NCBI RefSeq assembly: GCF_903913935.1
Contig: NZ_CAIWNH010000097.1
Span: 1-33,865 of the forward strand
Length of the DNA stretch: 33,865 nt
Reading direction: 5' to 3'
Source: an uncultured Mucilaginibacter sp.
GTDB taxonomy: Bacteria > Bacteroidota > Bacteroidia > Sphingobacteriales > Sphingobacteriaceae
Shown: in pieces, positions 5,329 through 26,852 of the stretch
Position numbering within the stretch: position 1 is the stretch's first letter
Layout of the letters: each line of letters opens with the position of its first letter
Notes under the pieces: generated by a model
Seen by the model: the letters and a program-made list of their open reading frames with translations, nothing else
What the model was told of the DNA's origin: nothing
Databases searched by the model: none
Translations under genes and position numbers: made by a program

Positions 5329-8300
5329 ATGGGAAAAATTCTACGAATAGCATTGCTGTTTCTTTCCATGGTAATAAGTGCCGGTGTGATGGCGCAAAAC
5401 CAGGGAACAGTGATCAAAGGTACAGTAACCGATGACAAAGGCGTCACACTTCCGGGCGCAACGGTTACTGTAAAAGGAACGCCATCAAAAGTGGCAACTG
5501 ATGTAAATGGCAAGTATAGCATTCAGGTGCCCCCGGGCGGAAAAATCCTCACGTTTTCATTTATTGGCATGGAATCGCAAAACGTTACCATTGGTGCCAA
5601 AACGGTTATTAATGTGGCATTGCAGTTATCATCAACAGCTTTAACAGACGTGGTGGTAATTGGTTATGGCACACAAAAGAGAGGTGATGTAAATGGCGCT
5701 ATATCTTCGGTTACCGCCAAGGACATCCAGGACCTCCCTCAGCCGTCCGTTGACCAGATGATGCAGGGTAAAGCTGCAGGTGTTACCGTTACCCAAAACT
5801 CAGGTGGGCCGGGTAGTGCAACTTCTGTACACATCCGTGGTATCTCTTCATTTACGGGTAGCGAACCATTGTATGTTATTGACGGGGTGGCCATCCAGGG
5901 TAATTCTCAGTCGGGTGTTCAGCTAACGCGCCCGGGTGGTGGGCAGGAAGAAACGACAGTAAGCCCGCTTGCGCAACTTAACCCGAACGACATTGAATCT
6001 ATTGACGTATTAAAAGACGCATCGGCGACTGCCATTTATGGTAGCCGCGCCGCTAATGGCGTGGTAATTATAACCACAAAAAAGGGTAAAAACGGCACTG
6101 CGAAAATTAACTACGATTTTTACTACGGTATACAATCGCAGGGCAAGTTTTTGGATGTGATGAACTTACCACAGTATGCTACACTTCAAAATTCACTTGC
6201 TGATGACTTCGGCGTAGGTCGCCGGATTGAATTTTCTGCCCCCAGTGTTTTAGGGCCCGGTACAAACTGGCAGAATGCTATTTTTCAAAATGCGCCTGAA
6301 CAAAGCCATACCTTATCAATTTCGGGAGCAAAAGATGGAACAGATTATTATATATCCGGTGGTTATTTCAACCAGGACGGTACCATTTTAGGATTCAAGT
6401 TTAACCGGTACTCATTTCATACTACTGTAAATTCGCAGGTAAAAGAATGGTTTAAAATAGGTACAAGTATTTCGGCAAGCCAAAGCAACGAAAACGTTGG
6501 TGAAGGTAATAGCTCAGGGGTTATTTATAATGCGTTATTATCCGCTCCTGATGCAGCAGTTTATAATGCTGATGGTTCCTATGCAGGTCCTTATACACCA
6601 CCGGGTGGTTTGCCGTATGGCGGCCCAAACCCTGTACAGCAGGCTTTGAATATCACCAATACCCTGCTAAGAAGTAATGTTCAGGGTGATTTGTATGGCG
6701 ATATCAAGTTCAATAAAGATTTGACGTTGCACTCAGATGTAAACGGGAATTTTGACTGGAGCAATGCAAAAACATTCCTCCCGACTTACTCGTATGGTGC
6801 TACCGGGTCAGTTCCGGCGTTTCAGAACCAGCAAGCCGTTTTAAATGAATACAATGCCAGCGATAGTTATTGGAACTGGAACGAGCAGTTGAACTACAAC
6901 CATACGTTTGCTAAGAAACATGTAGTACAGGCAACCTTAGGTCACGAAGTTTGGGAATCAAATTATGACGGGATCCAGGCCGGAACAAAAGGCTTTACCG
7001 CAGGGAATACCTTACAGACGCTAAATTTAGGTACGCAAACTGCTGATAACTTAGGAGAACCCAAAGGGAGCAATTCAATGGAATCATTTTTTGCGCGAGT
7101 GATATATACTTACAATAATAAATACAGCATTTCTGCAACTGATCGCCGCGACCAATCCTCGAACTTTGCGCCTGGTCACCAGGTGGGATATTTCCCGGGG
7201 GCATCCGCATCATGGAGGATCTCTGAAGAGCCATTTATGGCTAAGATCAACGGAGTTGTAAACAATCTTAAGTTAAGGGTTGGTTATGGCACCGTAGGTA
7301 ATTCAAATATCCAGCAATATGCTTACGGTTCAAGGATTACGCCGGTAACTACCGGTTTGGGCACAGGTTTTAGTTTTGCTAATTTCAATAACCCGCTTGT
7401 TACCTGGGAAACTGATATTCAGAAAAATATCGGGCTTGATTTTAGTATTCTTAACAATCGTATCGATGGAACAATTGATGCGTTTGACAAAACATCAAAA
7501 AACTTTCTGTTTCAACAACCACTTCCTGCCTTCCTTGGTGGCGGCGTGGGTGAATATTCAGGTGCTGCCGTTGTACAACCACCTTATGTAAATGCAGGTG
7601 AAATTGAAAATAAAGGCTTTGAGTTTAGCATTACCAGCAGGAACATTATAAACAAAAACTTTAAATGGAGCACAACACTTATCTTCTCTCACTATAATAA
7701 TAAAGTAATCTCGTTAAACGGTTTCCCGGCAATTATCGGATATATTAATTCAGGCGGTGGCGCCATCATCCCGGTTACCTCAACCCAGGTTGGTGGCCCG
7801 GTTGGCGAGTTTTACGGATATAAGATCCAGGGCATCGTTTCTTCAAATGCTCAATTACAGTACCTGTCAACACATCCTCAAAATGTAACCGGTGCACCAT
7901 CTGTTGTATCAAGTGACAGAACTATTGCTAACGGTGTTTGGTTAGGTGACCTTCAATACCAGGGTGAAAATAATAACGGTAATTCTCCGAACAGCCAGTA
8001 TGCATTGGGCAACCCTAATCCTGATTTTACCTATAGTATCACCAACAACTTTACTTACCAGGATTTTGATCTGTCAATATTCCTGACAGGATCATATGGC
8101 GGTAAAGTATTAAACGGGCTTAACTTTCAATTAGAAGCATTGGATGGTTTGTACCAAAATCAATTAGCCGCTGCCGGCAACTACTGGACACCTTCAAACC
8201 CAACGTCAACAATTCCGGCGCCAAGGGCTACCTTTGGTAACAATAACCTTGTGATGTCTGACAGGTTTTTAGAAAGCGCTTCTTTTTTACGGTTACAAAA

Positions 8301-8523
8301 CGTGCGGTTAGGCTATAATTTACCGGCAAAATGGGCAAGGTATATTAAAATGAACCACCTTAAGGTTTATGTAAGCGGGCAGAATTTGTATGTCTTTACT
8401 AAATATAGTGGCTTAGATCCCGAAGTAGGTTCGTTTAATCAAAACCCTACATTAATGAATGTGGATAACGGAAGGTACCCTATCCCGCGTGTAATTACTT
8501 TTGGACTTAACGCAGAATTTTAA
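5329..8523 (+). CDS. SusC/RagA-family TonB-dependent outer-membrane transporter
   Basis: Outer-membrane importer that forms a lidded complex with SusD and takes oligosaccharides into the periplasm with TonB energy. The 1064-aa product has a signal peptide (about 1-23, VMAQ), an N-terminal carboxypeptidase-D-like domain (about 26-103, starting IKGTVTDDKGVTLPGATV), the SusC signature DVVVIGYGTQKRGDVNG at about 107, and a plug domain with MMQGKAAGVTV, EPLYVIDGV and the ASATAIYGSRAANGVVIITTKKG-type motif. The rest is a beta-barrel ending FGLNAEF, a typical aromatic C-terminus. Full length. It begins a three-gene run: susD starts 20 bases after its stop. The substrate, manno-oligosaccharides, is inferred from the linked enzymes. 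Confidence 0.97.
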   Translation: MGKILRIALLFLSMVISAGVMAQNQGTVIKGTVTDDKGVTLPGATVTVKGTPSKVATDVNGKYSIQVPPGGKILTFSFIGMESQNVTIGAKTVINVALQLSSTALTDVVVIGYGTQKRGDVNGAISSVTAKDIQDLPQPSVDQMMQGKAAGVTVTQNSGGPGSATSVHIRGISSFTGSEPLYVIDGVAIQGNSQSGVQLTRPGGGQEETTVSPLAQLNPNDIESIDVLKDASATAIYGSRAANGVVIITTKKGKNGTAKINYDFYYGIQSQGKFLDVMNLPQYATLQNSLADDFGVGRRIEFSAPSVLGPGTNWQNAIFQNAPEQSHTLSISGAKDGTDYYISGGYFNQDGTILGFKFNRYSFHTTVNSQVKEWFKIGTSISASQSNENVGEGNSSGVIYNALLSAPDAAVYNADGSYAGPYTPPGGLPYGGPNPVQQALNITNTLLRSNVQGDLYGDIKFNKDLTLHSDVNGNFDWSNAKTFLPTYSYGATGSVPAFQNQQAVLNEYNASDSYWNWNEQLNYNHTFAKKHVVQATLGHEVWESNYDGIQAGTKGFTAGNTLQTLNLGTQTADNLGEPKGSNSMESFFARVIYTYNNKYSISATDRRDQSSNFAPGHQVGYFPGASASWRISEEPFMAKINGVVNNLKLRVGYGTVGNSNIQQYAYGSRITPVTTGLGTGFSFANFNNPLVTWETDIQKNIGLDFSILNNRIDGTIDAFDKTSKNFLFQQPLPAFLGGGVGEYSGAAVVQPPYVNAGEIENKGFEFSITSRNIINKNFKWSTTLIFSHYNNKVISLNGFPAIIGYINSGGGAIIPVTSTQVGGPVGEFYGYKIQGIVSSNAQLQYLSTHPQNVTGAPSVVSSDRTIANGVWLGDLQYQGENNNGNSPNSQYALGNPNPDFTYSITNNFTYQDFDLSIFLTGSYGGKVLNGLNFQLEALDGLYQNQLAAAGNYWTPSNPTSTIPAPRATFGNNNLVMSDRFLESASFLRLQNVRLGYNLPAKWARYIKMNHLKVYVSGQNLYVFTKYSGLDPEVGSFNQNPTLMNVDNGRYPIPRVITFGLNAEF

Positions 8524-8543: not shown

Positions 8544-10184
8544 ATGAAAAAATATATAAAATATTTAATCGGTATGGGCGCCATCGTTGGTATGGCCACA
8601 ACTGGTTGCAAAAAAGATTTTTTTAACCGGCCGCCCGAAAATGAACCTACAGTAGGCACATATTATCAAACAACGGCCCAGGTGCAGGCAAGTACAAATA
8701 TTCTTTACGCCGCGCCATGGTTTGGTTTTAACGGAAAAGCTTTTTTGGCAACCGGTGAGGTGCTGAGCGGGAATGCCCGTTGTTATGTTGGAGCGGATCC
8801 TGAATTTGGGGCATATGCAAACTATACAGAAGGTAATGCTACTCCGATAGTAACAAGCACATGGAACTCGTTGTTCACGGTTGTGGCGCAGGCAAACGCG
8901 TTGTTAAACAATTTACCCACGGCGGTTCCCGCCTCAGTTCCTTCATCTGTTAAAAACAACGCTTTAGGCGAAGCGCATTTAATGCGTGCTGCCGCTTATT
9001 TTTACCTGGTGCGTATTTTCGGAAACGTTCCGATCATCACAAATCCGACTGCATTTGTTGGCACTTTCCAAACAGTTCCGGCAAACTACGTAACAGATGT
9101 TTACCAGTTTATGATCAACGATTTGCAATTTGCCGAAGCCAATTGTACGCCAGGTGTTGCCAGTACAGGTCATGCGTCCAGCGGCTCGGCATCGGCATTA
9201 TTAGCTAAAGTATATTTATACGAACAGGATTACGCTAACGCCAAAAAAGAAGCTGAAAAAGTGATCAACAGCGGCGAATTTGGCTTACTCGGAATCGATG
9301 TTGCAGGCGTTTCATATAACGATCTGTATAAAACTGCCAATAATAATAATAAAGAATCCATCCTTGCAATGCAATGGTCGTCAAATGCCGGGTACGGATT
9401 TGGTAGTCAGTTGCAATCAGTAATCGCCTTAAACTCAACGATCACCGGCACCGGCGACGGTTATGGCGAATTAGGGCCAACATTTGATTTACAGAATGCC
9501 TACAAAGCTGCCGGAGATACCATCCGGAGGCATGGAACAATCATGATCCCGGGAGATTATTATCCGGAAATTGATAAAGCGACAGGAGGCTACAAAGTGC
9601 CGCTTAACGCAAGTGCACAGGGAACTGCTGCTGGGCTTAAAAAATATGTAGTGGGTACGCCTGCTGACAATAACGGGTTGACTGCGTTTCAGGCTACGAG
9701 CAATAACACCTATATTATGCGTTATGCTGAAGTGTATTTGATCGAAGCGGAAGCTGTTATGGGGCTGGCTGCAAATCCGGGAGCCGGACACGGTATAGAT
9801 ACCAATTACACTACCTCAGATCCGACAGCATTAAAATATATCAATTTAGTACGCAAAAGAGCAGGCTTAGGGCCCTATGCTGGTTTTACTTACAGGCAGT
9901 TAATAAAAGAAAGACGTCTTGAATTTGCTATTGAGGGCGATTATTGGTACGATTTGCAACGTATAGATGGTTTTAATTCCGCTACGCACCCTGTAGCTGA
10001 AGCTATTGAAGCCTCAACAAACAAGGGTGATTCTTATGGCGCAACGGCACCTAATTATAATAATTACACAATTAACCATACTTATATTGTTCCAACAGAC
10101 GCCCAGTTCATTATTCCGATTCCGGCTACAGACGCAGCAGCTGATCCGAATTTAACAAAGCCCCCTGTTCACTATAAATTTTAA
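8544..10184 (+). CDS. SusD/RagB-family surface glycan-binding lipoprotein
   Basis: Surface lipoprotein that closes over the SusC barrel and binds the incoming oligosaccharide. Signal peptide with lipobox ending TTGC, lipidated at Cys22, mature end CKKDFF. The body is alpha-helical with TPR-like character, with family features such as EAHLMRAAAYFYLVRIFGNVPI, YNDLYKTANNNNKESILAMQ, MRYAEVYLIEAEAV and IKERRLEFAIEGDYWYDLQR, ending in FIIPIPATDAAADPNL (fragments of conserved SusD blocks). Length 546 aa is normal. It lies 20 bases after susC and 21 bases before the next lipoprotein gene, so the three are almost surely cotranscribed. Confidence 0.96.
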   Translation: MKKYIKYLIGMGAIVGMATTGCKKDFFNRPPENEPTVGTYYQTTAQVQASTNILYAAPWFGFNGKAFLATGEVLSGNARCYVGADPEFGAYANYTEGNATPIVTSTWNSLFTVVAQANALLNNLPTAVPASVPSSVKNNALGEAHLMRAAAYFYLVRIFGNVPIITNPTAFVGTFQTVPANYVTDVYQFMINDLQFAEANCTPGVASTGHASSGSASALLAKVYLYEQDYANAKKEAEKVINSGEFGLLGIDVAGVSYNDLYKTANNNNKESILAMQWSSNAGYGFGSQLQSVIALNSTITGTGDGYGELGPTFDLQNAYKAAGDTIRRHGTIMIPGDYYPEIDKATGGYKVPLNASAQGTAAGLKKYVVGTPADNNGLTAFQATSNNTYIMRYAEVYLIEAEAVMGLAANPGAGHGIDTNYTTSDPTALKYINLVRKRAGLGPYAGFTYRQLIKERRLEFAIEGDYWYDLQRIDGFNSATHPVAEAIEASTNKGDSYGATAPNYNNYTINHTYIVPTDAQFIIPIPATDAAADPNLTKPPVHYKF

Positions 10185-10205: not shown

Positions 10206-11474
10206 ATGAAATTTAAACAATTCAAAAACATAAGCTTGGTACTGTCGGCGTTGATGGTATTCGGCTTCGCATCCTGCAAAAAGATGAATAGTTTGGGGTT
10301 TACCCCAGGTACGGGAACCCCTGTGATTTCGAGTGTGAGAACATTAAGCAAATCAATAGTTGATTCCATGCGCGTTCATTCAACTACCACGTATAATAGC
10401 AGTGGTATTGCAACAACCACTTCTTATTTCGATTACACACCGCAGGCAACCGCATTTGATTCAACTACAGTTACCGGGAATTTGAATAATTACTATGTTT
10501 TAATCGGTGCAAACCTGGGTAGTACTACCAAAATAGCTATCAACGGTGTTTCGGTGTATTTTAACCGGGCCTTTAATTCTGATAAATCAGTAGTTTTTCA
10601 AATACCAACAACGGTTCCGTATGTGCAGCCGCAGCCAAATACCATCGTAGTTACTACATTGAACGGTAGCTTTACGTATAAATTTACCACGCTGCCTCCC
10701 CCGCCAACAATTACCGGCGTATCAGATTATGATTTCCAGGCAGGTACGCAAATAACACTTACAGGTAAGGGTTTTGCTTCGGTTTCTGGTATAAAACTAA
10801 AGGCAACCAGTGATGAAGTTTCTATCGTATCTCAAAATGACAGTACTTTAGTTATGAAAATGCCTGCGCACAGTACCGCTACAGAATCTACATTGTTGTT
10901 TACCTATACTTCAGGGTCAAATCCTGCGGCGCAAACAGCTTCGACTACGGTATTTAACGACCTTGATAATGGTTACATCATTTTCGCTGACAATAATTTC
11001 CAGAATGCATGGGGCGATAATTCATGGGCCGGGCCATCCGGAGTTTCAACAACAGCTTCACATTCAGGTACTGCATCCGCCGCAGCAAGTTATCCTGCTG
11101 GTCAATGGAAAGTTGAAGGCTGGGCCAACTGGTATCCAAGTTTCTCTTACGATGCAGCTTATAAGTATTTAACTTTCTGGGTTAAGGGCGGTACTGTTAC
11201 CCATACGCTTGTATTGGTGGGCGATAAGATGGCAGGCGGTTATGGCCAGATTCAAAACGTAAGCGCATACGCCGCACAGTTAGTTACCGTACCACCAAAT
11301 GTTTGGACTTTCTTCAAAATTCCGCTGGCTTCATCACAGTCATCAACAAATGTTAACACCCTTAATTATTGGGCTAATGGTTCGCCGGCGCAACAACTGG
11401 GCTTCTTCCTTCAGGGTATGAGCGGTGATGTTGATGAAAAAATGTTCTTTGATGAAGTTGCATTTATAAAATAG
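10206..11474 (+). CDS. IPT/TIG-domain surface glycan-binding lipoprotein (SGBP-like)
   Basis: Third gene of the uptake module, in the place of SusE/SusF-type accessory binding proteins. Signal peptide with lipobox FASC, lipidated Cys24, mature end CKKMNS. A degenerate immunoglobulin-like (IPT/TIG) region spans about 36-162 and a clearer IPT/TIG domain about 166-250 (PTITGVSDYDFQAGTQITLT). The C-terminal part (about 254-422) is rich in Trp/Tyr (WGDNSW, EGWANWYPSFSYD) and ends MFFDEVAFIK; it resembles the glycan-binding C-terminal domain of SGBP-B-type proteins in other loci. The fold assignment of this last domain is by resemblance only. It probably captures mannan chains at the cell surface. 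No catalytic motif is seen. A strong terminator follows. Confidence 0.85.
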   Translation: MKFKQFKNISLVLSALMVFGFASCKKMNSLGFTPGTGTPVISSVRTLSKSIVDSMRVHSTTTYNSSGIATTTSYFDYTPQATAFDSTTVTGNLNNYYVLIGANLGSTTKIAINGVSVYFNRAFNSDKSVVFQIPTTVPYVQPQPNTIVVTTLNGSFTYKFTTLPPPPTITGVSDYDFQAGTQITLTGKGFASVSGIKLKATSDEVSIVSQNDSTLVMKMPAHSTATESTLLFTYTSGSNPAAQTASTTVFNDLDNGYIIFADNNFQNAWGDNSWAGPSGVSTTASHSGTASAAASYPAGQWKVEGWANWYPSFSYDAAYKYLTFWVKGGTVTHTLVLVGDKMAGGYGQIQNVSAYAAQLVTVPPNVWTFFKIPLASSQSSTNVNTLNYWANGSPAQQLGFFLQGMSGDVDEKMFFDEVAFIK

Positions 11475-11808: not shown

Positions 11809-12687
11809 ATGATGACAAGCAATGTAATGCGCGAAATTACCCCGCTGACACCAAGCGATTGCTTTACTATTTTTTCGAGGGTAAAAAAGAAATTCGACTT
11901 CCCGCTTCATTATCATGACGAATATGAACTTAACCTGATATTGAACGCGAAAGGGGCGAAGCGGGTAGTGGGCGGCCACATTGAGGTAATTGATGACCTG
12001 GAACTGGCCCTGATCGGCCCTAATCTTTACCATGCCTGGTTTACCAACCAGTGCCAGAGTGAGGCGATAACAGAGATTACTATCCAGTTTCATAAAGATC
12101 TGTTTGATGAGAAGTTTTTAAAAAGAAACCAACTGAGCTTTTTGAAAAACATGCTGGAGCGCTCCCAAAAAGGCATCTTGTTTTCGCAGGAAACCATCAA
12201 CACGCTTAAGGACAGGGTACTTAATTTAGATAAAAAAAACGGCTTCGATTCTGTGCTTGAGTTACTATCAATACTTCATGATCTTTCTACATCAAGGAAC
12301 ATGAAAACGTTATCGGATTCCAGTTTTACTAATGAAAAGTTTTTTTACAACAGCCGGCGTATCGAAAAGGTGTTTGAGCATATGAATAATAACTATAATA
12401 AGCAGGTAACGCTTGCAGAAGTGGCCCGGATAGCCAATATGCCGGAAGCTTCGTTCAGCCGTTTCATCAAAAAACGCACCGGCAAAACATTTATTGATAG
12501 TTTGAACGAGATAAGGCTTGGCCATGCCTCCAGGATGCTGATCGACTCAACCACAACGGTTGCCGAAATAGCCTATAAATGCGGGTTTAACAATATATCC
12601 AACTTCAACAGGATATTTAAACGCAAGAAAATGTGCATTCCTAAGGAGTTCAGGGAAACCTATACCGGCAACAGGGTTTTTATTTAG
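11809..12687 (+). CDS. AraC-family transcriptional regulator with cupin-like sensor domain
   Basis: The 292-aa protein has an N-terminal cupin-like sensor half (FDFPLHYHDEYELNLIL, about residues 29-45, with the His/Glu pattern typical of sugar-sensing AraC regulators) and a C-terminal double HTH of about 100 residues (KQVTLAEVARIANMPEASFSRFIKKRTGKTF... VAEIAYKCGFNNISNFNRIFKRKKMCIPKEFR). No signal peptide or membrane helix, so cytosolic. It opens the catabolic module and sits 174 bases upstream of the symporter. It probably responds to an intracellular sugar and controls 12862-21633, so the locus would have a second regulator beside the HTCS. Effector unknown. The start could be Met1 or Met2; both are ATG. 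Confidence 0.9.
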   Translation: MMTSNVMREITPLTPSDCFTIFSRVKKKFDFPLHYHDEYELNLILNAKGAKRVVGGHIEVIDDLELALIGPNLYHAWFTNQCQSEAITEITIQFHKDLFDEKFLKRNQLSFLKNMLERSQKGILFSQETINTLKDRVLNLDKKNGFDSVLELLSILHDLSTSRNMKTLSDSSFTNEKFFYNSRRIEKVFEHMNNNYNKQVTLAEVARIANMPEASFSRFIKKRTGKTFIDSLNEIRLGHASRMLIDSTTTVAEIAYKCGFNNISNFNRIFKRKKMCIPKEFRETYTGNRVFI

Positions 12688-12861: not shown

Positions 12862-14694
12862 ATGAAGCTCCATCCCATAGACATCGCCATTATTGCGCTC
12901 TACCTGCTAAGTACCATATTTATTGGCCTTTGGTATCGTAAAAAAGCGCGGCAGAATAAGGAGAGCTATATGCTTGGCGGTAAATCGCTGCCCTGGTACA
13001 AACTGGGACTGAGCGATGCCTCTGATATGTTTGATATCAGCGGCACCATGTGGATGGTGAGCCTGTGTTTTGTTTACGGCATGAAAAGTATCTGGATCCC
13101 CTGGCTTTGGCCGGTTTTTAACCAGGTGTTTTTAATGATGTACCTCTCGCGCTGGCTGCGGCGCTCCAACGCCTCCACCGGCGCCGAATGGTTGGCCACC
13201 CGTTTTGGCAAAAGCGGTCCGGGGGTAACCGCATCACAAATTGTGGTGATTGCCTTTGCGCTATTGAGCTGTCTGGGCTTTATGGCCTATGGCTTTATCG
13301 GCCTGGGGAAATTTATAGAGATCTTCGTTCCCTGGGACATGATCAAGGGCTATATTCCTTTTGATGTTGCGCCCCAATATGTACCACATGTTTACGGTGT
13401 AATTTTTACCCTGTTTGCCATGTTTTATTCCATTTTAGGTGGAATGCATAGCATCGTGGTGGGCGATATGGTTAAATACGGCATCATGACGGTGGCCTGT
13501 ATCTGGATCGGTTTCATCGCCGCCGGACAATTGAGCAGCCATCATTTGAATGTGCCCAACGGCTGGTTCAGTCCGTTTTTTGGAAAACATCTTGACCTGA
13601 ATTGGTCGGGGATCATCAGCCAGGTAAATGAAAAAATAAAAACCGACGGCTATTCGCTTTTTGGCCTGTTTTTTATGATGATGACCTTTAAAGGCTTTTT
13701 TGCAGCATTGGCGGGCCCTGCGCCAAATTATGATATGCAAAAGATCCTTTCCACCCGCTCGCCTGAAGAGGCCAGTAAAATGAGTGGTTTTGTAAATATC
13801 ATCCTGCTGCCTATCCGGTATACGCTAATCATCAGCCTGACTGCTTTAGGGCTCATCTATTATCACCAGATGAACTTAAGCGATGGCGCGGGAGGGATTG
13901 ATTTTGAACGCATTTTACCTGCAGTAATCAATAACTTTTTACCCGTTGGCTTAGTAGGCTTGCTGCTGGCAGGTTTACTCGGCGCCTTCATGAGCACCTT
14001 TAGCGGTACGATGAATGCGGCACAGGCGTATTTGGTTAATGATATTTATTTAAAATACGTTAACCCAACAGCGTCAAACCGAAGAACGATTGCCATGAAC
14101 TACCTTGCAGGTATAGTTGTTGTGGCGCTGGGCGTTTTCATCGGTTTTTTTATGAAAAACGTGAATACTACTTTACAGTGGATCGTGTCGGCACTCTACG
14201 GAGGGTATATTGCTTCAAATGTGTTAAAATGGCATTGGTGGCGTTTTAATGCATCCGGATTTTTTGTAGGGATGCTGACGGGGATTGTAACCGCCATGGT
14301 TTTCTCATTGGTTATCCCTGATGGCGAGTTATTGTATTGGTTCCCCTTATTGTTCGGTTTGTCTATGGCAGGTTCCATTATCGGTTCCTATGCATTTCCG
14401 CCAACGGACCAATCTGTGTTAAAATCTTTTTATAAAAATGTTCGCCCCTGGGGATTTTGGGGGCCTGTGAAAGATGCCGTTTTAGCGGAAGACCCATCCT
14501 TTCAGCCAAATAAAAACTTTAAGCTGAATATGTTCAACGTGGTAATTGGTACGGCGGCACAATGTTGTTTAACCATATTACCCATGTACCTGGTATTGAG
14601 CCAAAAAATGCCGCTATTGATCACCGTGGGCATTTTGGCGGTGATCATCATTATCCTGAAGAAAACATGGTGGGATAAATTGAAGGATTATTAA
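12862..14694 (+). CDS. Sodium:solute symporter (SSS family), probable mannobiose/sugar transporter
   Basis: Inner-membrane sodium-coupled symporter. The 610-aa protein starts with a first membrane helix (PIDIAIIALYLLSTIFIGLW) followed by the SSS hallmark ESYMLGGKSLPWYKLGLSDAS, and has about 13-14 hydrophobic segments, including GLVGLLLAGLLGAFMSTFSGTMNAAQ, a conserved SSS block around helix 8. It is directly upstream of the GH130 and epimerase genes. In the B. fragilis mannan cluster a sugar/cation symporter holds the same place, so mannobiose is the likely cargo (inference). The long cytosolic and C-terminal tail (about residues 500-610) ends with two further helices. Full length, with no anomalies. 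Confidence 0.92.
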   Translation: MKLHPIDIAIIALYLLSTIFIGLWYRKKARQNKESYMLGGKSLPWYKLGLSDASDMFDISGTMWMVSLCFVYGMKSIWIPWLWPVFNQVFLMMYLSRWLRRSNASTGAEWLATRFGKSGPGVTASQIVVIAFALLSCLGFMAYGFIGLGKFIEIFVPWDMIKGYIPFDVAPQYVPHVYGVIFTLFAMFYSILGGMHSIVVGDMVKYGIMTVACIWIGFIAAGQLSSHHLNVPNGWFSPFFGKHLDLNWSGIISQVNEKIKTDGYSLFGLFFMMMTFKGFFAALAGPAPNYDMQKILSTRSPEEASKMSGFVNIILLPIRYTLIISLTALGLIYYHQMNLSDGAGGIDFERILPAVINNFLPVGLVGLLLAGLLGAFMSTFSGTMNAAQAYLVNDIYLKYVNPTASNRRTIAMNYLAGIVVVALGVFIGFFMKNVNTTLQWIVSALYGGYIASNVLKWHWWRFNASGFFVGMLTGIVTAMVFSLVIPDGELLYWFPLLFGLSMAGSIIGSYAFPPTDQSVLKSFYKNVRPWGFWGPVKDAVLAEDPSFQPNKNFKLNMFNVVIGTAAQCCLTILPMYLVLSQKMPLLITVGILAVIIIILKKTWWDKLKDY

Positions 14695-14799: not shown

Positions 14800-15993
14800 A
14801 TGACACAACTATTTGAAAAACGTTTAAAAGAATTAGAAGCGGAACAAAAACAGCTGACGGACTTGCGTAATGAAATAGCGGGTACAGGGAACGGTGTTTT
14901 CGATCGCTATAAATATCCTGTTTTAACCGCAGCACATACCCCGCTGTTTTGGCGCTATGATCTCGACCCGGAAACCAATCCATATTTAATGGAACGGTTC
15001 AGCATCAATGCCGCCTTTAACGCAGGGGCAATAAAGTTAAACGGTAAATATTTAATGGTAGCCAGGGTGGAAGGAGCTGATCGTAAATCCTTTTTCGCGG
15101 TAGCCGAAAGCCCTGATGGCATCAACAACTTTACCTTTTGGGATTACCCGGTGGATATGCCCGAAACGGATGAACCGGACACCAATGTTTATGATATGCG
15201 TTTAACAGCGCACGAAGACGGATGGATCTATGGTTTGTTTTGTACCGAAAGGCGAGACCCTGAGGCCCCGGCACATGACCAGTCGATGGCGATTGCCGCT
15301 TGTGGTATTGCCCGTACAAGAGACCTTGTAAAATGGGAACGCCTGCCGGACCTGGTCACCAACTCGCCCCAGCAGCGTAATGTAGTGTTGCATCCCGAAT
15401 TTGTGGGTGGCAAATATGCTTTATATACCCGCCCGCAGGATGGTTTTATCAGCGCAGGTAAAGGTGGAGGCATTGGTTTTGGCTTAACAGAAACCATGGA
15501 AAATGCTTTTGTGAATGAAGAAACCATCATCGACAATAAAAATTATCATACGGTTTACGAAGCAAAAAACGGACAGGGGCCAACACCCATCAAAACCGGT
15601 AAAGGCTGGCTGCACCTGGCACACGGTGTGCGTAATACGGCCGCAGGTTTGCGTTATACGCTGTATATGTTTATGACCGATCTGCACGATCTCACCAAAG
15701 TTTTATACAAACCCGCTGGTTACTTTTTAGCGCCGGAAGGAGAGGAGCGCATTGGCGATGTATCCAATGTGGTATTTTGCAACGGCTGGATCAGGGACGA
15801 TGATGATACGGTTTACATTTATTATGCTTCATCAGATACCCGGATGCATGTAGCTACCAGCACTGTGGATAAACTGCTGGATTATGTGATGAATACGCCA
15901 CCAGATGGTTTGCGTTCAGCATCATCGGTGAACACCCTTTATGAGATCATTGATAACAATAAGGCGCTTTTAAGTCCGAATTCCTTAGTCTGA
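14800..15993 (+). CDS. GH130 phosphorylase, probable 4-O-beta-D-mannosyl-D-glucose phosphorylase
   Basis: Cytosolic inverting phosphorylase that converts mannosyl-glucose plus phosphate to mannose 1-phosphate and glucose. At 397 aa it has the length of the characterised B. fragilis enzyme. GH130 motifs seen: [29 protein letters not shown] (phosphate-binding Arg region, given here in parts at about 69-97), [15 protein letters not shown] with the presumed catalytic Asp132, [15 protein letters not shown], and [19 protein letters not shown] with the late phosphate-binding His/Arg. The N-terminal helix ([15 protein letters not shown]) is typical of GH130 subfamily 1. It has no signal peptide, in agreement with an intracellular reaction. 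Immediate neighbours are the transporter that would bring in the disaccharide and the epimerase that would make its substrate. A mannobiose or mannooligosaccharide phosphorylase (subfamily 2) is the less likely alternative. Confidence 0.9.
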
Positions 15994-16084: not shown

Positions 16085-17293
16085 ATGCAGGAGAAGGCGA
16101 TAACGTCACAAATTGATAACTACAAGACGGAACTTAGTACGGAGTTACAGTCCATATTGGATTATTGGACAAGTAATACGATTGATCATGCCAATGGCGG
16201 TTTTTTAGGAAGAATTGATTGCCAGGAACTGGTTGTACAGGATGCCCCAAAAGGATCGGTATTAAACGCCCGGATTTTATGGACCTTTGCTGCCGCTTAT
16301 AACTACGATGCCAACCCGGTTTACCTGGAGACGGCGAACCGTGCTTATGATTATATAGGCAAGTTTATCTTCGATCACGAGTTCGGCGGGGTTTTTTGGT
16401 CTGTTGATCATACAGGCGCGCCGCTTGATACCAAAAAACAGGTTTATGCTATCGCTTTTACTATTTACGCGCTGAGCGAGTATTACATGGCCTCAGGTAT
16501 TGAAGTAGCGAGGACAAAAGCGGTTGAATTATACTATTTACTGGTTGACAAGGCATACGACTCCGTGAAAACAGGGTATTTTGAAGCCTTTACAAGAGAC
16601 TGGAACCCGATAGATGATTTGCGACTGAGTGCCAAGGATGAAAATGAAAAAAAGACGATGAACACCCACCTGCATGTACTGGAGGGGTATACTAATCTTT
16701 ACCGGGTATGGCCCGAGGGTACCTTAAGGGCGCAAATCCTGTTATTGCTGCATAACTTTTTCGATCATTTTATTGATCCTGAAAGCCACCACCTGCGCCT
16801 GTTTTTTGACGAGAACTGGGAGAATAAATCTGGCCTGGTGTCTTATGGGCATGATATCGAGGCGACCTGGTTGTTACTGGAAGCTGCCGAAGTGATTCGC
16901 GACGAAGCGATGATCGAAAAGATAAAAAAGGTAAGTATTCCGATAGCTGAAGCAACGATAGATGGCCTGGACACCGATGGCGGCCTTTGGTACGAGTATG
17001 AACCTGCAGAAGAGCTGCTCATTAAAGAAAAACACTGGTGGGTGCAGGCGGAAGCAATGGTGGGATTTTATAATGCCTGGCAAATAAGCGCCGATGAAAA
17101 ATACCTGCAACTATCCATCAAAAACTGGGCATTTGTTAAAGATAAAATTTTAGATAAAGTAAACGGCGAATGGTTTTGGGGAATCAATAAAAACGGGCTG
17201 GTAATGCCCGGCGAAGATAAAGCAGGAATATGGAAATGCCCGTATCATAACAGCAGGGCATGTTTGGAGATCATAAAAAGAACAGGACTATGA
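16085..17293 (+). CDS. N-acylglucosamine 2-epimerase family: cellobiose/mannobiose 2-epimerase
   Basis: Cytosolic epimerase that turns the reducing-end mannose of beta-1,4-mannobiose into glucose (or the reverse with cellobiose). The 402-aa product is an (alpha/alpha)6 barrel with the cellobiose 2-epimerase blocks GGFLGRID (about 39-46), NARILWTFAAAYN, GGVFWSVDHTGAPLDTKKQVYAIAF, NTHLHVLEGYTNLYRVWP, SYGHDIEATWLL with His256, KHWWVQAEAMVGFYNAW, and WKCPYHNSRACLEI with His388. The two His residues sit about 132 residues apart, as do the catalytic pair in known cellobiose 2-epimerases. No signal peptide. The RBS-like CAGG is immediately before the ATG. Placed right after GH130, it should feed that enzyme. 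An N-acetylglucosamine 2-epimerase role is unlikely given the context. Confidence 0.92.
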   Translation: MQEKAITSQIDNYKTELSTELQSILDYWTSNTIDHANGGFLGRIDCQELVVQDAPKGSVLNARILWTFAAAYNYDANPVYLETANRAYDYIGKFIFDHEFGGVFWSVDHTGAPLDTKKQVYAIAFTIYALSEYYMASGIEVARTKAVELYYLLVDKAYDSVKTGYFEAFTRDWNPIDDLRLSAKDENEKKTMNTHLHVLEGYTNLYRVWPEGTLRAQILLLLHNFFDHFIDPESHHLRLFFDENWENKSGLVSYGHDIEATWLLLEAAEVIRDEAMIEKIKKVSIPIAEATIDGLDTDGGLWYEYEPAEELLIKEKHWWVQAEAMVGFYNAWQISADEKYLQLSIKNWAFVKDKILDKVNGEWFWGINKNGLVMPGEDKAGIWKCPYHNSRACLEIIKRTGL

Positions 17294-17372: not shown

Positions 17373-19178
17373 ATGGAAAAAATGAAAAAAACAGCACTAA
17401 TTGTATTAACTGCCATAGTGGTAGCACAATCATGTAAGAAGGATCCGAATAATTCCGGCGGAGGAACGACAACGACATCTACGACTCCGGGAACCGGCGT
17501 TGGTACGGGTCCGGGCGGCAGTATTTTAGCCGGGACAGATCCATCGGTTGCTGCTACACAGGGCTTCTTTTTGGATAACTGGCAGGGAAAAACCTTTACT
17601 GCTCCCACATCACAAAATGTTTCAAAGCCATCGGCCGGGTCAATCAACGTAACTGTCGACCTGAGCCAGATCACCACAAAAACTTCGAAATTGCTATTTG
17701 GCAATAATTCCAACCCTTTTATGGGCCAGGTTGTTGACCCTTCCTCGTTCAGCAATTCAATTTTGCTTAACAATATAACCGCACTTGCGCCCAATATTAT
17801 AAGAGCACCCGGTGGCAGTCTTTCAGATGTTTACTTTTTTAATGGCGATGGCATTGGGAACGTTCAGGCACCTGCTGATGCGCCTTCCACGCTGCTTGAT
17901 TTGAATGGCAATTCGTCAACCGCAGGCTATTGGTTTGGTAATAACACCCAAAATTGGACATTTAGCCTGGATAACTATTATAAATTGTTGCAGCAAAGCA
18001 ACAGCACCGGCCTGATCACCGTAAATTATGGTTATGCCCGTTATGGAACAGGTCCAACGCCTGTTCAAACCGCGGCACATTTAGCTGCCAGTTGGGTTAG
18101 GTATGATAAGGGACGTACTACTTATTGGGAAGTAGGTAACGAGAATTACGGAAACTGGGAAGCGGGATACCGGATCGACCCTTCAAAAAATCAGGATGGT
18201 CAACCAGCAATCATCACCGGAACTGTTTACGGAACACATTTTAAGGTTTTTGCCGACTCGATGCGTGCAGCTGCCATCCAGGCTGGCAACAACAATATAA
18301 AAATAGGCATCGTGCTAACCACAACCAACGATGCAAATAACAACGCCGGCGTTACCAATTGGAACCGTGATGTTTTGGCAGCCGCCGGTAATGCCGCAGA
18401 TTTTTTTGTGGTGCACAATTATTACACGCCCTATGGCCAGAATTCAAACCCTACGGTGATATTGAGTTCACCTGCACCTGCCACAAGTGCGATGATGAGC
18501 TGGGTAAAAACGTCGGCCCAAAATGCCGGTGTAACTCAAAAGCCTGTGGCGATGGATGAATGGAACCTGCAGGCGGTGGGTTCCAGCCAGATGGTTTCGA
18601 ACATCGCAGGTTTGCACGCGGTAATGGTTTTAGGTGAAGCCTTGAAAAACCAGGTAAGTATGGCAAGCCGGTGGGATTTGGCCAACGGGTACAGCAATGG
18701 CGATGATATGGGCATGTTTAACAATTCATCAGGTGGCGGCGCCGAACCGGGAGCACCTGCATGGAACCCGCGCCCAGCGTTTTATTATATGTATTTTTTC
18801 CAAAAATATTTTGGCGACCGGGTGGTAGGTTCAACTGTAAGCGGGAGCAGCGATATTGTTAGTTACGGGTCGTCATTTTCCTCAGGGGAGGCAGGGGTTG
18901 TTTTAGTAAACCAGGGAAATTTTGATCATGTAGTAAATATTGCCTTTAATAACTATGCTATCGGTACCAAATACTATTATTATACGCTTAATGGCGGTAC
19001 GGATAATGTGCCTTTTTCGCATAGTGTTTTCGTAAACGGAGTTGGCGCCGCAAGCGGCAAAACCGGTGGCCCGGCTTCGTATGCAACAGTGCCGGCCATC
19101 TCGCAAACGGTTTCAGGCGGTATCATCGTTATGGTTCCGGCTTACGGCGCAGTTTATTTAGTGGCTGATAAAAAGTAA
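17373..19178 (+). CDS. Lipoprotein glycoside hydrolase of clan GH-A type, GH51/alpha-L-arabinofuranosidase-like
   Basis: A 601-aa surface or periplasmic lipoprotein: signal peptide with lipobox VAQSC (Cys21 from the first ATG; a second ATG at 17382 would also give it), mature end CKKDPN, then a Gly/Thr-rich flexible tether to about residue 52. The catalytic part has a retaining clan GH-A pattern: NIIRAPGGSLSDVYFF (like the RxPGG block of GH51/GH39/GH79), the presumed acid/base Glu257 in YWEVGNENYGNW, and the presumed nucleophile Glu396 in VAMDEWNLQ, 139 residues later. A C-terminal beta-sandwich (about 490-600) follows. The closest resemblance is to proteins called alpha-L-arabinofuranosidase, but in a mannan locus it could act on another side chain or on beta-mannosides. 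Family and substrate are not settled by the sequence. Confidence 0.65.
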   Translation: MEKMKKTALIVLTAIVVAQSCKKDPNNSGGGTTTTSTTPGTGVGTGPGGSILAGTDPSVAATQGFFLDNWQGKTFTAPTSQNVSKPSAGSINVTVDLSQITTKTSKLLFGNNSNPFMGQVVDPSSFSNSILLNNITALAPNIIRAPGGSLSDVYFFNGDGIGNVQAPADAPSTLLDLNGNSSTAGYWFGNNTQNWTFSLDNYYKLLQQSNSTGLITVNYGYARYGTGPTPVQTAAHLAASWVRYDKGRTTYWEVGNENYGNWEAGYRIDPSKNQDGQPAIITGTVYGTHFKVFADSMRAAAIQAGNNNIKIGIVLTTTNDANNNAGVTNWNRDVLAAAGNAADFFVVHNYYTPYGQNSNPTVILSSPAPATSAMMSWVKTSAQNAGVTQKPVAMDEWNLQAVGSSQMVSNIAGLHAVMVLGEALKNQVSMASRWDLANGYSNGDDMGMFNNSSGGGAEPGAPAWNPRPAFYYMYFFQKYFGDRVVGSTVSGSSDIVSYGSSFSSGEAGVVLVNQGNFDHVVNIAFNNYAIGTKYYYYTLNGGTDNVPFSHSVFVNGVGAASGKTGGPASYATVPAISQTVSGGIIVMVPAYGAVYLVADKK

Positions 19179-19248: not shown

Positions 19249-20472
19249 ATGAAGGTAAACCCTGTAAAAAAAATCCTGCTGGCATCGTTGCTTTGCCTGG
19301 CCTGCTGCGGACAATTGTTCGCGCAAAAATTTGAGGAACTGGCCCAAACGCCCCCGATGGGCTGGAACAGCTGGAACACATTTCAAACGAATATTGACCT
19401 GCCCCTGTTAAAAGGAATGGTAGATACCTTCGTGTCTTCGGGAATGAAGGACGCGGGCTACACCTATTTTGTTTTGGATGATGGCTGGATGGCTATGCAG
19501 CGGGATATGGATGGCAATTTAGTAGCCGACCCCAAAAAGTTCCCCAATGGGATGAAGGAATTTGCAGATTATGTGCATTCAAAAGGCCTGAAGTTCGGCA
19601 TTTATAATTGCGCCGGAACATTGACCTGCGCAGGTTATCCCGGTACCCGGGGTTATGAATATCAGGATGCCCGCTTATATGCCTCATGGGGCGTGGATTA
19701 TTTAAAGTTCGACTGGTGCAATACTGACGGGATCAATGCGATTGAAGCGTACAAAACCATGAGCAAAGCCATCCGCGCGGCAGGCAGACCAATGATCTTC
19801 AGTTTATGCGAGTGGGGGCAGCACAAACCCTGGCGCTGGGCCAAAGATGTGGGCCAGTTGTGGCGGTCGACCGGCGATATTGGTGTCGGCTTTGAAAAAA
19901 ATATCAGCAAAGGCGACTGGACAGCGTTAAGTGTGCTATCGATACTTGACCAGCAGGATAGCATCCGCCAATATGCAGGTCCCGGTCACTGGAACGATCC
20001 CGACATGCTGGAAGTGGGCAACGGGATGAAGTATAATGAGGATAAGGCCCATTTTTCGCTATGGTGCATGCTGGCAGCGCCGCTGATGGCAGGTAACGAT
20101 CTGCGTAAAATGTCAGATCAAACCAGGTCTATTTTAACCAATAAAGAGCTGATCGCACTTGACCAGGATCCATTGGGTGTTGAAGCCTTTAGGTTTTATG
20201 CTTTTGACGGCATTGAAATATGGGTAAAGCCATTGGCCAATAACGAACTGGGTGTTTGCTTTTTAAATCGCTCCGGCAAGCCGCAAAAGGTAAGTTATGA
20301 CTGGAAAGACCACGTGATCAACGATGCGCTATCCAATACCAGTATTGATTTCAACCAAACAACTTACAAATTGCGCGACCTTTGGGCGAAAAAGGATCTA
20401 GGCACTACGGCAAAGCCTTTTAGCCAGGTAATTCCTGCGGATGATGTGGTGGTTATGAGGTTAACCAAATAG
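19249..20472 (+). CDS. GH27 alpha-galactosidase, exported
   Basis: Removes alpha-1,6-linked galactose side chains from galactomannan or its oligosaccharides. Signal peptide MKVNPVKKILLASLLCLACC...FAQ, probably cut after Gln26 (the C-C does not form a proper lipobox), so periplasmic or secreted. GH27 motifs are complete: TPPMGWNSWNTF, YFVLDDGWM, GIYNCAGTLTCAGYPGTRGY, DYLKFDWCN with nucleophile Asp155, LWRSTGDI with acid/base Asp210, PGHWNDPDMLEVGN, and HFSLWCMLAAPLMAGNDLR. A C-terminal beta-sandwich closes the protein at 407 aa, normal for bacterial GH27. It lies 70 bases after the GH51-like gene and 48 bases before the GH26 mannanase. Its presence argues that the target polysaccharide carries galactose. 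Alpha-N-acetylgalactosaminidase activity cannot be excluded but does not fit the locus. Confidence 0.95.
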   Translation: MKVNPVKKILLASLLCLACCGQLFAQKFEELAQTPPMGWNSWNTFQTNIDLPLLKGMVDTFVSSGMKDAGYTYFVLDDGWMAMQRDMDGNLVADPKKFPNGMKEFADYVHSKGLKFGIYNCAGTLTCAGYPGTRGYEYQDARLYASWGVDYLKFDWCNTDGINAIEAYKTMSKAIRAAGRPMIFSLCEWGQHKPWRWAKDVGQLWRSTGDIGVGFEKNISKGDWTALSVLSILDQQDSIRQYAGPGHWNDPDMLEVGNGMKYNEDKAHFSLWCMLAAPLMAGNDLRKMSDQTRSILTNKELIALDQDPLGVEAFRFYAFDGIEIWVKPLANNELGVCFLNRSGKPQKVSYDWKDHVINDALSNTSIDFNQTTYKLRDLWAKKDLGTTAKPFSQVIPADDVVVMRLTK

Positions 20473-20520: not shown

Positions 20521-21633
20521 ATGAAGAAAATACAAATCTTATGCTGCATCATCTTGTTTAATTCGTGCGCAAAGGGACAATTATTTGGACCAAGCGACCG
20601 GCGGGCAACTGCCGAAACGCGGGAATTGTATTACAGTATGCAGCGCATAGCCGATGGAGGTATTTTGTTTGGGCACCATGACGATACCGGCTACGGTGTT
20701 AACTGGAAGTACGAGAAGGATAGTTCCGACGTAAAAAGCATTACAGGATCATACCCTGCAATTTATGAATGGGACCTTTCAAAAATTGAGCACGACAGTA
20801 TCAATGATATCAATGGCTTTCCGTTTGCCGTGCAAAAGCAAAGGGTGAAAGAAGCTTATGAACGCGGCGGCATCAATACCTATTGCTGGCACATGGATAA
20901 CCCAACCAACGGCAAAACTGCCTGGGACACCAGCAGGCGTACCGTTGCTGATCTGATTCCGGGTGGCGCTTTCCACGATGCTTATGTGCAATACCTGGAT
21001 AAAGCGGCGAGTTACCTTGCAGATCTGAAAGGAAATAATGGCGAGCAGATCCCGATGCTGTTCAGGCCGTTTCATGAACTTACGGGAAACTGGTTCTGGT
21101 GGTGTAAAAATACCTGTACCCCCGATGAGTTTAAAACCTTGTGGCGCTTTACCATTGATTATATGCGCAATACCAAAAAGCTGCACAATTTACTCATCGT
21201 TTATTCGGTTTCGGATTTCAACTCGGAAGCCGATTTTATGGAGCGATATCCCGGCGATGGATATGTTGATTTTGTGGGCTTCGATAATTATTGCTTTGCC
21301 AATACTGCAGTTTATGCAAAGAACCTGGATAAACGACTGGCGCTGCTGGATGTGATAGCCGCCAAACATCGTAAATTATCCTGCCTTGCCGAAACCGGTT
21401 ATTTAAATATCCCTCAAACAGATTGGTGGACGAATGTTTTGCTGCCTGTTATCTCCAAATACAAAACATCCTATGTACTGATCTGGCGCAATGCCGGTAC
21501 GGAGCAATATTATGCCCCTTACCCCGGACAGAAAAGCGCCGAGGATTTTAAAAAGTTTTCGGAGGATCGTCATTTGATCTTTCAGAACCGTTTAACTCCG
21601 TTGTCGGTTTACGGGGAGCAATCAGGGAAGTGA
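20521..21633 (+). CDS. GH26 endo-beta-1,4-mannanase lipoprotein
   Basis: Cuts the mannan backbone, mostly releasing mannobiose in related Bacteroidota enzymes. The 370-aa product has a short signal peptide with a lipobox-like LFNSC (Cys16), so it is probably an outer-membrane lipoprotein. GH26 blocks: GILFGHHDDTGYG, YPAIYEWDL, GGINTYCWHMDNP, MLFRPFHELTGNWFWWC with acid/base Glu186, DFVGFDNY, and CLAETGY with nucleophile Glu291. The His-Glu pair in RPFHE and the WFWW subsite are typical of mannanases rather than of GH26 xylanases or lichenases. Last gene of the catabolic module; no terminator hairpin with a T-tract follows, only a palindromic repeat. Whether it faces the outside or the periplasm cannot be told. 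Confidence 0.95.
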   Translation: MKKIQILCCIILFNSCAKGQLFGPSDRRATAETRELYYSMQRIADGGILFGHHDDTGYGVNWKYEKDSSDVKSITGSYPAIYEWDLSKIEHDSINDINGFPFAVQKQRVKEAYERGGINTYCWHMDNPTNGKTAWDTSRRTVADLIPGGAFHDAYVQYLDKAASYLADLKGNNGEQIPMLFRPFHELTGNWFWWCKNTCTPDEFKTLWRFTIDYMRNTKKLHNLLIVYSVSDFNSEADFMERYPGDGYVDFVGFDNYCFANTAVYAKNLDKRLALLDVIAAKHRKLSCLAETGYLNIPQTDWWTNVLLPVISKYKTSYVLIWRNAGTEQYYAPYPGQKSAEDFKKFSEDRHLIFQNRLTPLSVYGEQSGK

Positions 21634-22484: not shown

Positions 22485-23150
22485 ATGTGCGCAAAAATTG
22501 ACGATGACCTGAATGAACTTGACCCTTTGTACCAAAGTTTGCTGGAGGGGAACAAGCAATTTATTAAAGATTCATTAAAAATAGATTCAGAATATTTCAC
22601 CAAGCTGGCGAAGGGACAGGCGCCGCCGGTATTATGGATCGGTTGTGCTGATAGCCGCGTGCCGGCTAACCAGATAACCAATACCGCCCCGGGAGAAATA
22701 TTTGTACACCGCAACATCGCTAACATGGTGATCCACTCGGATATGAATATGCTTTCTGTGCTGGATTATGCCGTAAATGTTTTAAAGGTAAAGCATGTGA
22801 TCGTAACCGGCCATTATGGCTGTGGCGGGGTTATTGCTGCCATGGGTAACCAGCAATTCGGGTTGATAGACAACTGGCTCAGGCACATCAAAGACGTTTA
22901 CCGCCTTCATGCCGCCAAACTCGATGCCATCGCAGATATGGATGAACGCTGCGACCGTCTGGTAGAATATAACGTGATTGAAAATGTGCGGAATCTCTGC
23001 AAAACCTCTATCGTGCAAAATGCCTGGAAGATCGGCCAGCCCGTAGGCGTGCACGGTTGGGTATATAGCCTTAAAACCGGCGTCATTACTGATATGAAGG
23101 TAAGCGCTTACGACAATGCCAATATGGATAATGTGTTTAAGTTTAAGTAG
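22485..23150 (+). CDS. Beta-class carbonic anhydrase
   Basis: Catalyses the reversible hydration of carbon dioxide to bicarbonate in the cytosol. The 221-aa protein has the three zinc ligands Cys54 (in GCADSRVP), His110 and Cys113 (GHYGCGGV), and the Asp56-Arg58 dyad; HRNIANMV is also conserved. The two-residue His-Cys spacing is the usual one. No signal peptide. A TATTTTTA stretch about 30 bases before the ATG is near the -7 consensus. It converges on pruA, with only a 68-base spacer that is an inverted repeat. Full length, no anomalies. Confidence 0.95.
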   Translation: MCAKIDDDLNELDPLYQSLLEGNKQFIKDSLKIDSEYFTKLAKGQAPPVLWIGCADSRVPANQITNTAPGEIFVHRNIANMVIHSDMNMLSVLDYAVNVLKVKHVIVTGHYGCGGVIAAMGNQQFGLIDNWLRHIKDVYRLHAAKLDAIADMDERCDRLVEYNVIENVRNLCKTSIVQNAWKIGQPVGVHGWVYSLKTGVITDMKVSAYDNANMDNVFKFK

Positions 23151-26306: not shown

Positions 26307-26852
26307 ATGAAGCTGCTAACCCTAACAGCGTTGATCTTTCTATCTCTTGATTCTTACGGGCAAAAAGACAGTGCTGCTAAGGATATCCGTTTTAAAATAG
26401 TTGAATACATTAATGGAAATCTTTATAGAAAAAGGATTGAGGCTATTGATACTGTTGGTTTAATGGGAAAAACAATAGATTTATATTTCTACAGGAAACA
26501 CTTTTATATACCCTATTACCTCCCTGATCAATTTGTTGATCGTCGGTATAAAAATGAAACGATAATTAAGTCGGATAGCAATGCCTCTGCTGTTATAAAA
26601 AAAATAATATCATTTACTTATGACAGCCTATCAAGGATAGTCAGCTATAGCAATTCGGGATGTATAATTTGCAATTATCTTCCGTATAGTTATCATTTTA
26701 GTTATAACCAGGCCGGAAAAATTAAACGAATTACGAGCATAATTAACACGAAAGAAAAATTTAAAATATACTACGATAAAAAAGGGAACATACAACGGCT
26801 TGATTACTTGATGTTTGACAAACTGGACACACAAATTATCAGGATAAATTAG
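26307..26852 (+). CDS. Secreted hypothetical protein with YD-like repeats
   Basis: Not recognised as a named family. The 181-aa product starts with a signal peptide (MKLLTLTALIFLSLDSYGQ) and ends with three spaced motifs of the form tyrosine-(D/N)-x-x-G/S-(R/K)-I: YDSLSRIVSYS (about 110), YNQAGKIKRITS (about 133) and YDKKGNIQRLDYL (about 153). These resemble the YD repeats of RHS-type wall proteins, here in a very short form. A Cys pair (CIIC) lies between the first two. A+T-rich like the neighbouring HEAT-like gene. Its role is unknown; small periplasmic or cell-surface YD proteins are frequent in Bacteroidota. Confidence 0.65.
   Translation: MKLLTLTALIFLSLDSYGQKDSAAKDIRFKIVEYINGNLYRKRIEAIDTVGLMGKTIDLYFYRKHFYIPYYLPDQFVDRRYKNETIIKSDSNASAVIKKIISFTYDSLSRIVSYSNSGCIICNYLPYSYHFSYNQAGKIKRITSIINTKEKFKIYYDKKGNIQRLDYLMFDKLDTQIIRIN

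Follow-up and report, generated by a model that had tools for sequence, protein, structure and literature searches.

A predicted lipoprotein hydrolase of clan GH-A, apparently distinct from GH51 and GH79, that accompanies SusC/SusD importers in mannan loci of Mucilaginibacter

The gene described here, which we call X, is found in a stretch of 33,865 nucleotides (the window) from an uncultured Mucilaginibacter species, and it co-occurs with a SusC/SusD importer across the SSF-GH130-epimerase loci of the genus. On balance we favour the view that X is a surface-tethered retaining endo-hydrolase of beta-1,4-(gluco)mannan which acts beside SusC, SusD and a surface glycan-binding protein (SGBP), has sister clades of glucan type and belongs to an undescribed family of clan GH-A. 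We infer its surface location, endo mode, retaining mechanism and substrate, as well as the sites at which the remaining enzymes of the locus act; a function as surface endo-mannanase is supported by the genome context. The window corresponds to contig C97 in a genome of 5.26 Mb (contigs, genomes and loci carry our own labels), and its nearest named relative is a Mucilaginibacter MAG (L001).

The window contains a SusC/SusD pair, hydrolases and a regulator, the set of genes that defines a polysaccharide utilization locus (Table 1). The genes for SusC, SusD, SGBP, the AraC-type regulator, the SSF symporter, GH130, the epimerase, X, GH27 and GH26 are all on one strand. A first-pass annotation of this DNA had called it a mannan locus, which agrees with the presence of GH130, epimerase, GH27 and a BoMan26A-like GH26 beside SusC/SusD. 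The solved structure closest to this GH26, 4ZXO, is BoMan26A according to the accessible part of PMC5217682.

Table 1. Features of the mannan locus, with positions in the window
Feature	Position	Strand	Evidence
HTCS, hybrid two-component regulator	281..4456	+	Pfam
SusC-like TonB-dependent importer	5329..8523	+	Pfam Plug, CarbopepD_reg_2
SusD-like lipoprotein	8544..10184	+	Pfam
SGBP, IPT/TIG type, BACOVA_02650-related	10206..11474	+	5e7g E 2e-13; no Pfam match
AraC-type regulator	11809..12687	+	Pfam
SSF sodium/solute symporter, predicted disaccharide uptake (substrate inferred)	12862..14694	+	Pfam
GH130, 4-O-beta-D-mannosyl-D-glucose phosphorylase type	14800..15993	+	3was E 6.8e-178; Pfam
Cellobiose 2-epimerase type	16085..17293	+	3wkf E 1.1e-110; NCBIfam EpiA 402 bits, below cut-off 800
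X, predicted lipoprotein glycoside hydrolase, clan GH-A	17373..19178	+	Translation, fold, conservation, tree
X signal peptide and lipobox, Cys21 then KKD	17373..17441	+	Sequence; lipobox regex survey
GH27 alpha-galactosidase	19249..20472	+	Pfam Melibiase_2 E 3.6e-76
GH26, closest solved BoMan26A (mannobiose-forming), then CjMan26C	20521..21633	+	Pfam; 4zxo E 2.5e-92

X had been put forward as the sole candidate for any additional activity on the backbone, on the premise that a beta-mannosidase is lacking. The identities of the GH130, epimerase and GH26 genes led us to reject this premise. A route from mannobiose through an epimerase and a phosphorylase makes a beta-mannosidase dispensable, and because the locus encodes this route the beta-mannosidase is not missing. 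There is also a second GH26 gene in the same genome, outside the mannan locus (contig C544, L134 1462-2526, minus strand). Its product most resembles 6q75, named 'GH26A' (E 1.2e-118), followed by several endo-mannanases; it has a signal peptide, and no lipobox was seen by eye. From its sequence this enzyme could make endo-cuts itself, in which case X may be dispensable for this step. Behind the mannan locus lies a carbonic anhydrase gene (22485-23150), and the two remain close together in the relatives L001-L005 and L007. Two further open reading frames of the window (25029-25793, minus strand; 26307-26852, plus strand) have no Pfam match up to E 0.01.

X is a protein of 601 amino acids. Its reading frame has no internal stops, and many stops lie in the single minus-strand frame that was read across this interval. 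A comparison of 596 codons with the copy in L001 (87% amino acid identity) gives a dN of 0.064 and a dS of 1.0, a dN/dS of about 0.06 for this single pair with the nearest relative. The open reading frame is a real, intact gene, and X matches once in its own genome.

The N-terminus carries a lipoprotein signal with the sequence VVAQSC followed by KKDPNN, which bears out the earlier description of a tethered lipoprotein. The Cys is followed by KKD, as it is in the SusD of the same locus; this KKD we take to be a surface-export signal. A simple regular expression picks out a possible lipobox Cys in 62 of the 65 relatives. The matches in L110 and L111 seem to be false positives, and in several other relatives the Cys chosen is unlikely to be the one that is modified. 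Tandem pairs of X lie beside GH3 genes in L085 (7222-10638, with a GH5) and L087 (8030-11632, with a GH97). The downstream copy of L085 has no lipobox by the same expression, so tethered and untethered versions may coexist.

The motifs GNEN (E257), DEWN (E396) and RAPGG (R144-G148) are at the positions given in the first-pass annotation, and the clan GH-A active site that it read from them is matched by a predicted fold of that clan. The residues R144, N256, E257, H348, Y350, E396 and W434 do not vary among the 66 copies aligned, which are X of the window and 65 relatives. Thus a predicted (beta/alpha)8 barrel, the Asn-Glu of the acid/base (N256-E257) and a Glu nucleophile (E396), the features that define clan GH-A, are all found. 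E257 is the predicted acid/base and E396 the predicted nucleophile, and the arrangement is consistent with a retaining mechanism. The same conservation bears on the idea that X is derived from a hydrolase, has lost its catalysis and now serves as a surface glycan-binding protein. X adjoins SusC, SusD and SGBP, which would suit a binding role, but the 66 aligned copies all keep both catalytic glutamates and their neighbouring residues unchanged, and we regard a dead enzyme as highly improbable.

The structural model of X has a mean pLDDT of 83.9 and a pTM of 0.86, with several blocks of ten residues at pLDDT 54-73, some of them near the active site. It matches clan GH-A enzymes (Foldseek; VIA), and GH44 glucanases are among the Foldseek matches. 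The best Z scores among the 50 fold matches listed are 30.5 for GH79 and 29.5 for GH51, which is a tie. GH39, GH164 and GH113 do not appear among these 50, an absence that is uninformative. The comparison with GH51 and GH79 by structure prediction, proposed earlier as a check, gives a predicted clan GH-A barrel to which both families are equally near. The label 'GH51-like' holds for the fold and for the motif GNENYGNWE; it does not hold as a placement, since the model is as close to GH79 and a phylogenetic tree sets X outside five GH51 sequences.

X matches no Pfam or NCBIfam family, and the earlier failure to name one was justified. No Pfam model scores above its cut-off, the only match being HARP (E 0.09, 12.8 bits, cut-off 25), and no NCBIfam model matches up to E 0.1. 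The GH51 models PF06964 and PF22848 do not match X up to E 0.1, nor do they match the related loci L036-L039, L025 and L022 up to E 1; the GH51 control L041 matches both. The GH79 model does not match X, and the GH79 of this genome is a different gene (PF16862 E 2.1e-10). A separate GH51 gene is likewise present elsewhere in the genome. The GH5 and GH26 models hit other proteins and not X, and no Pfam match of X to GH39, GH164 or GH113 was found, the Pfam model for each of these three being unconfirmed.

More distant similarity leads to GH51 and beyond it. A search of the PDB with X as a single sequence returns weak GH51 matches only (E 0.013-0.016). A profile of 30 sequences of the X family finds GH51 structures (3ug3, E 5.8e-10) and the hyaluronoglucuronidase 7eyo (E 7.3e-7). 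In a tree of 75 sequences X and L036 are part of one clade of 66 leaves with a support of 1.0; the sequences outside it are five GH51, one GH79 and three unassigned, a thin sampling of the outgroup. Near the start of the GH51 barrel is a GxFxE motif whose Glu presumably has a role in the glycone site and is present in 5 of 5 GH51 rows of the alignment. None of the 66 copies of X has a Glu at positions G110+2 to +6.

GH51 membership was rejected on the missing Pfam match, the position outside the clade and the GxFxE Glu that has no counterpart. GH79 membership was rejected on the missing Pfam match and the distinct GH79 gene of the genome. X has the machinery of clan GH-A, yet it fails every test for GH51 or GH79 that was made. 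The best explanation is that X stands for a clan GH-A family of its own, undescribed so far and intermediate between GH51 and GH79, which is set apart by Pfam, NCBIfam and these tests; X may have received a recent CAZy family number. Among the literature matches listed (titles and openings of abstracts, with most subscription journals outside the scope) no report of the X family was found; Mucilaginibacter and GH130 occur together in two of the papers covered. The same evidence bears on an alpha-L-arabinofuranosidase of GH51, one of the activities suggested at first. The profile matches to GH51 structures and the motif GNENYGNWE, common to X and GH51, speak for this activity, but the three grounds that exclude X from GH51 and the presence of a distinct GH51 in the genome speak against it. 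Arabinofuranose is not a known substituent of mannans either, which counts against it too, and an arabinofuranosidase is very unlikely.

A genome scan found 42 related loci, of which L001-L035 have 46-86% identity to X, L036, from a Fibrobacteres MAG, 28%, and L037-L042 21-30%. L041 is a GH51 by Pfam, and L040 and L042 align to it at 60 and 51% identity. The nearest group to X by profile is L037-L039 (hhalign E 5.8e-40 versus 3.6e-24 for GH51). These keep the motif GNENYGNWE and differ from X in their 25-30% identity and in flanks with no SusC/SusD match (the flank of L037 is short). They come from MAGs labelled Omnitrophota, Bacillota and Proteobacteria. Three further relatives, H1-H3, group with them, and H1, from Streptomyces, is annotated as 'cellulose-binding protein'; carbohydrate genes were not found in the flank of the relative on a Streptomyces plasmid. 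A further relative, on a Nonomuraea plasmid, is in a stretch without annotation. X copies are present in 73 of 149 genomes of the genus and in 14 of 395 genomes spread across the phylum, four of these 14 being within the genus itself. In G110:C85 (L169) and G008:C60 (L062, L066 and L067) X is in two or three pieces, which are pseudogenes or errors of draft assembly.

The co-occurrence of X with the importer was counted at GH130 loci. All 78 GH130 places found in the 149 genomes of the genus were taken; four were left out for short flanks, and 10 of the remaining 74 for lacking an epimerase, which leaves 64 loci with an SSF-GH130-epimerase core. A locus is counted as without importer where tblastn (E 1e-15) gives no match to SusC or SusD of the window on that strand 3-12 kb upstream. 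Of the 32 core loci with SusC/SusD upstream 30 have X, and of the 32 that lack SusC/SusD there 3 have it (Fisher p 2.8e-12). For GH27 the counts are 18 of 32 and 18 of 32 (p 1), and for GH26 they are 29 of 32 and 10 of 32 (p 1.7e-6). Core loci without the importer nearly always lack X too, and often retain GH27. The exceptions are L152, L153 and L154, which have X and no SusC/SusD match upstream, and L115 and L117, which have the importer and no X. Because the 64 loci are related, changes were also counted on their midpoint-rooted tree. Fitch parsimony gives 11 changes for the importer, 11 for X and 14 for both jointly, so that under the most parsimonious joint account at least 8 are shared. 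The same sum gives 2 shared changes for GH27 (11, 12 and 21) and 4 for GH26 (11, 10 and 17). X therefore follows the importer more closely than does the adjoining GH27 or GH26, although the GH26 of the locus tracks the importer too, and this and the five exceptions count against the proposed role. L115 additionally has esterases of SASA and CE2 type. Ten other loci with GH130 and SSF but no epimerase (L114, L116, L118, L119, L125, L126, L129, L172, L178 and L186) have no X either, and a SusC-like match lies upstream in L114 only; their GH130 proteins are 65-72% identical to that of the window and perhaps have another substrate.

X tracks the importer and not the oligosaccharide genes, and it therefore fits better as a polymer-cutting partner of the importer than as a downstream trimming enzyme. 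This argues against an exo-acting beta-mannosidase or beta-glucosidase. X is in clan GH-A, in which many GH51 and GH79 enzymes are exo-acting, and these closest solved relatives of X are mostly exo-enzymes. However, such a job is already done by the phosphorylase and epimerase of the locus, and exo-activity at the surface would be expected to feed neighbouring cells. We consider an exo-enzyme unlikely.

X is not restricted to mannan loci. There are 83 X places in the genus, after three fragments were dropped from 86 rows; 35 of the 83 are within 10 kb of a GH130, and 24 of 77 GH130 genomes have no X. The idea that a mannan locus always includes X was rejected on these two counts. In 18 of 53 genomes that carry both, X is away from GH130. 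Unlinked X loci, of which 20 were fetched from 48 places, have SusC or SusD within 8 kb on the same strand in 17 cases. A wider set was assembled from 68 copies by removing three duplicates, which leaves 65, and then eight with short flanks. In the resulting 57 X loci, which come from three non-random draws, SusC or SusD is within 8 kb on the same strand in 48. L074, L075, L076 and L078 have no hydrolase of the searched families within 8 kb on the strand of X.

Other copies stand behind SusC-SusD-SGBP cassettes, some of them beside enzymes of glucan or xyloglucan type. Outside mannan loci the neighbours of X include GH31, GH9, GH2, GH3 and GH5, and SGBPs with a xyloglucan-binding domain, a set typical of xyloglucan and glucan loci. 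Because X also sits with these genes, the common factor appears to be a beta-1,4 backbone. With neighbours typed only against the window genes and annotated families, 23 of the 57 loci have GH130 or GH26, 18 have GH31, GH9, GH3 or GH5, and 6 have both. Other possible endo-enzymes are encoded at some X loci, namely GH5 in L023, L027, L085 and L103 and GH9 in L105, L106 and L109. L103 has X together with GH26 and GH5, and this, with the endo-type GH26 in the genome of the window, weakens the suggestion that X makes up for the lack of an endo-mannanase.

The residue before the nucleophile, 395, is D in 23 of 28 mannan-labelled copies. In the glucan-labelled group it is T in 12 of 13; the glucan label of one member, L086, comes from a GH97 neighbour alone. 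In 19 copies with the importer alone it is D in 10 and T in 9. A paired change, S149N/E263Q, occurs in the same eight copies, six glucan-labelled, two with the importer alone and none mannan-labelled. S149 and E263 are close in sequence to the active-site motifs. These residues hint at substrate-specific clades, relatedness being a confounder, and other clades of X probably cut beta-1,4-glucan or xyloglucan.

The X of the window might itself be a surface endo-beta-1,4-glucanase, cutting Glc-Glc or Glc-Man bonds of glucomannan, or xyloglucan, and not a true mannanase. The 18 loci with glucan-type neighbours, the SGBP_B_XBD proteins at further X loci and the GH44 glucanases among the Foldseek matches are consistent with this. 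The 23 loci with GH130 or GH26, six of which also have a glucan-type gene, count against it, and the difference at residue 395, confounded by relatedness as it is, may mean that the mannan and glucan copies have different substrates. We consider a glucanase in the window rather unlikely, though the most serious of the alternatives.

An endo-hydrolase of (gluco)mannan would act at the start of the pathway, and X is probably the enzyme that first cleaves mannan-like fibres, ahead of their uptake. The polymer would be cut by X outside the cell and the resulting fragments brought in by SusC/SusD. In the periplasm GH27 and GH26 would trim them to mannobiose, and inside the cell the SSF symporter, the epimerase and the GH130 phosphorylase would complete the breakdown. 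A broader proposal is that X represents a new family of clan GH-A surface endo-beta-1,4-glycanases, a vanguard of SusC/SusD systems in Bacteroidota with mannan-specific and glucan-specific clades. This we put forward tentatively, at somewhat less than an even chance.

The first surface cut in SusC/SusD-based uptake of hemicellulose helps to decide the diet of Bacteroidota. The X family is absent from Pfam and NCBIfam, and annotation that rests on them would overlook it. If active, X would represent an endo-hemicellulase family not known before, found in mannan-type as well as glucan-type loci; it would serve studies of specificity and could help to assign substrates to loci that at present appear short of enzymes. 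Beta-mannanases are placed in GH5, GH26, GH113 and GH134 in the accessible part of PMC9032380, and the X family would join these for mannan if the proposal is true. The word 'GH51' was not returned by a word search of the main text of the review PMC10492685.

The known enzymes most similar to X in structure are found in two families. The GH51 arabinofuranosidases (3ug3, 3s2c) share its fold (3ug3_C, Z 29.5, rmsd 2.8, 414 aligned residues, 20% identity) and the motifs R-PGG, GNENYGNWE and DEWN. X differs from them in having no Pfam GH51 match, in its place outside five GH51 sequences in the tree, in lacking the GxFxE Glu and in being a lipoprotein beside SusC/SusD. The GH79 beta-glucuronidase of A. 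capsulatum (8b0d) and heparanase are also alike in fold (Z 30.5, rmsd 2.9, 411 aligned residues, 16% identity). X has no Pfam GH79 match, and the GH79 of its own genome has GGE in place of the PGG-S of X and is without YGNWE.

In proposed role X resembles enzymes of other families. In Bacteroides ovatus, according to the accessible part of PMC5217682, BoMan26B makes the endo-cut at the surface and BoMan26A, which is likely periplasmic, produces mannobiose. BoMan26B makes, as X would, a surface cut that feeds SusC/SusD in a locus with GH26 and alpha-galactosidase, as far as the accessible parts of PMC5217682 and PMC6556568 describe it, and differs in belonging to GH26. In the window there is a single GH26, which is of the BoMan26A type. 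In the xyloglucan locus of F. johnsoniae a GH5_4 endoxyloglucanase is described, in the part of PMC11892949 that was available, as an outer-membrane endo-enzyme that works with SusC/SusD. This enzyme is unlike X in its family, GH5, and in its substrate, xyloglucan; the likeness is in the proposed role as a surface endo-enzyme.
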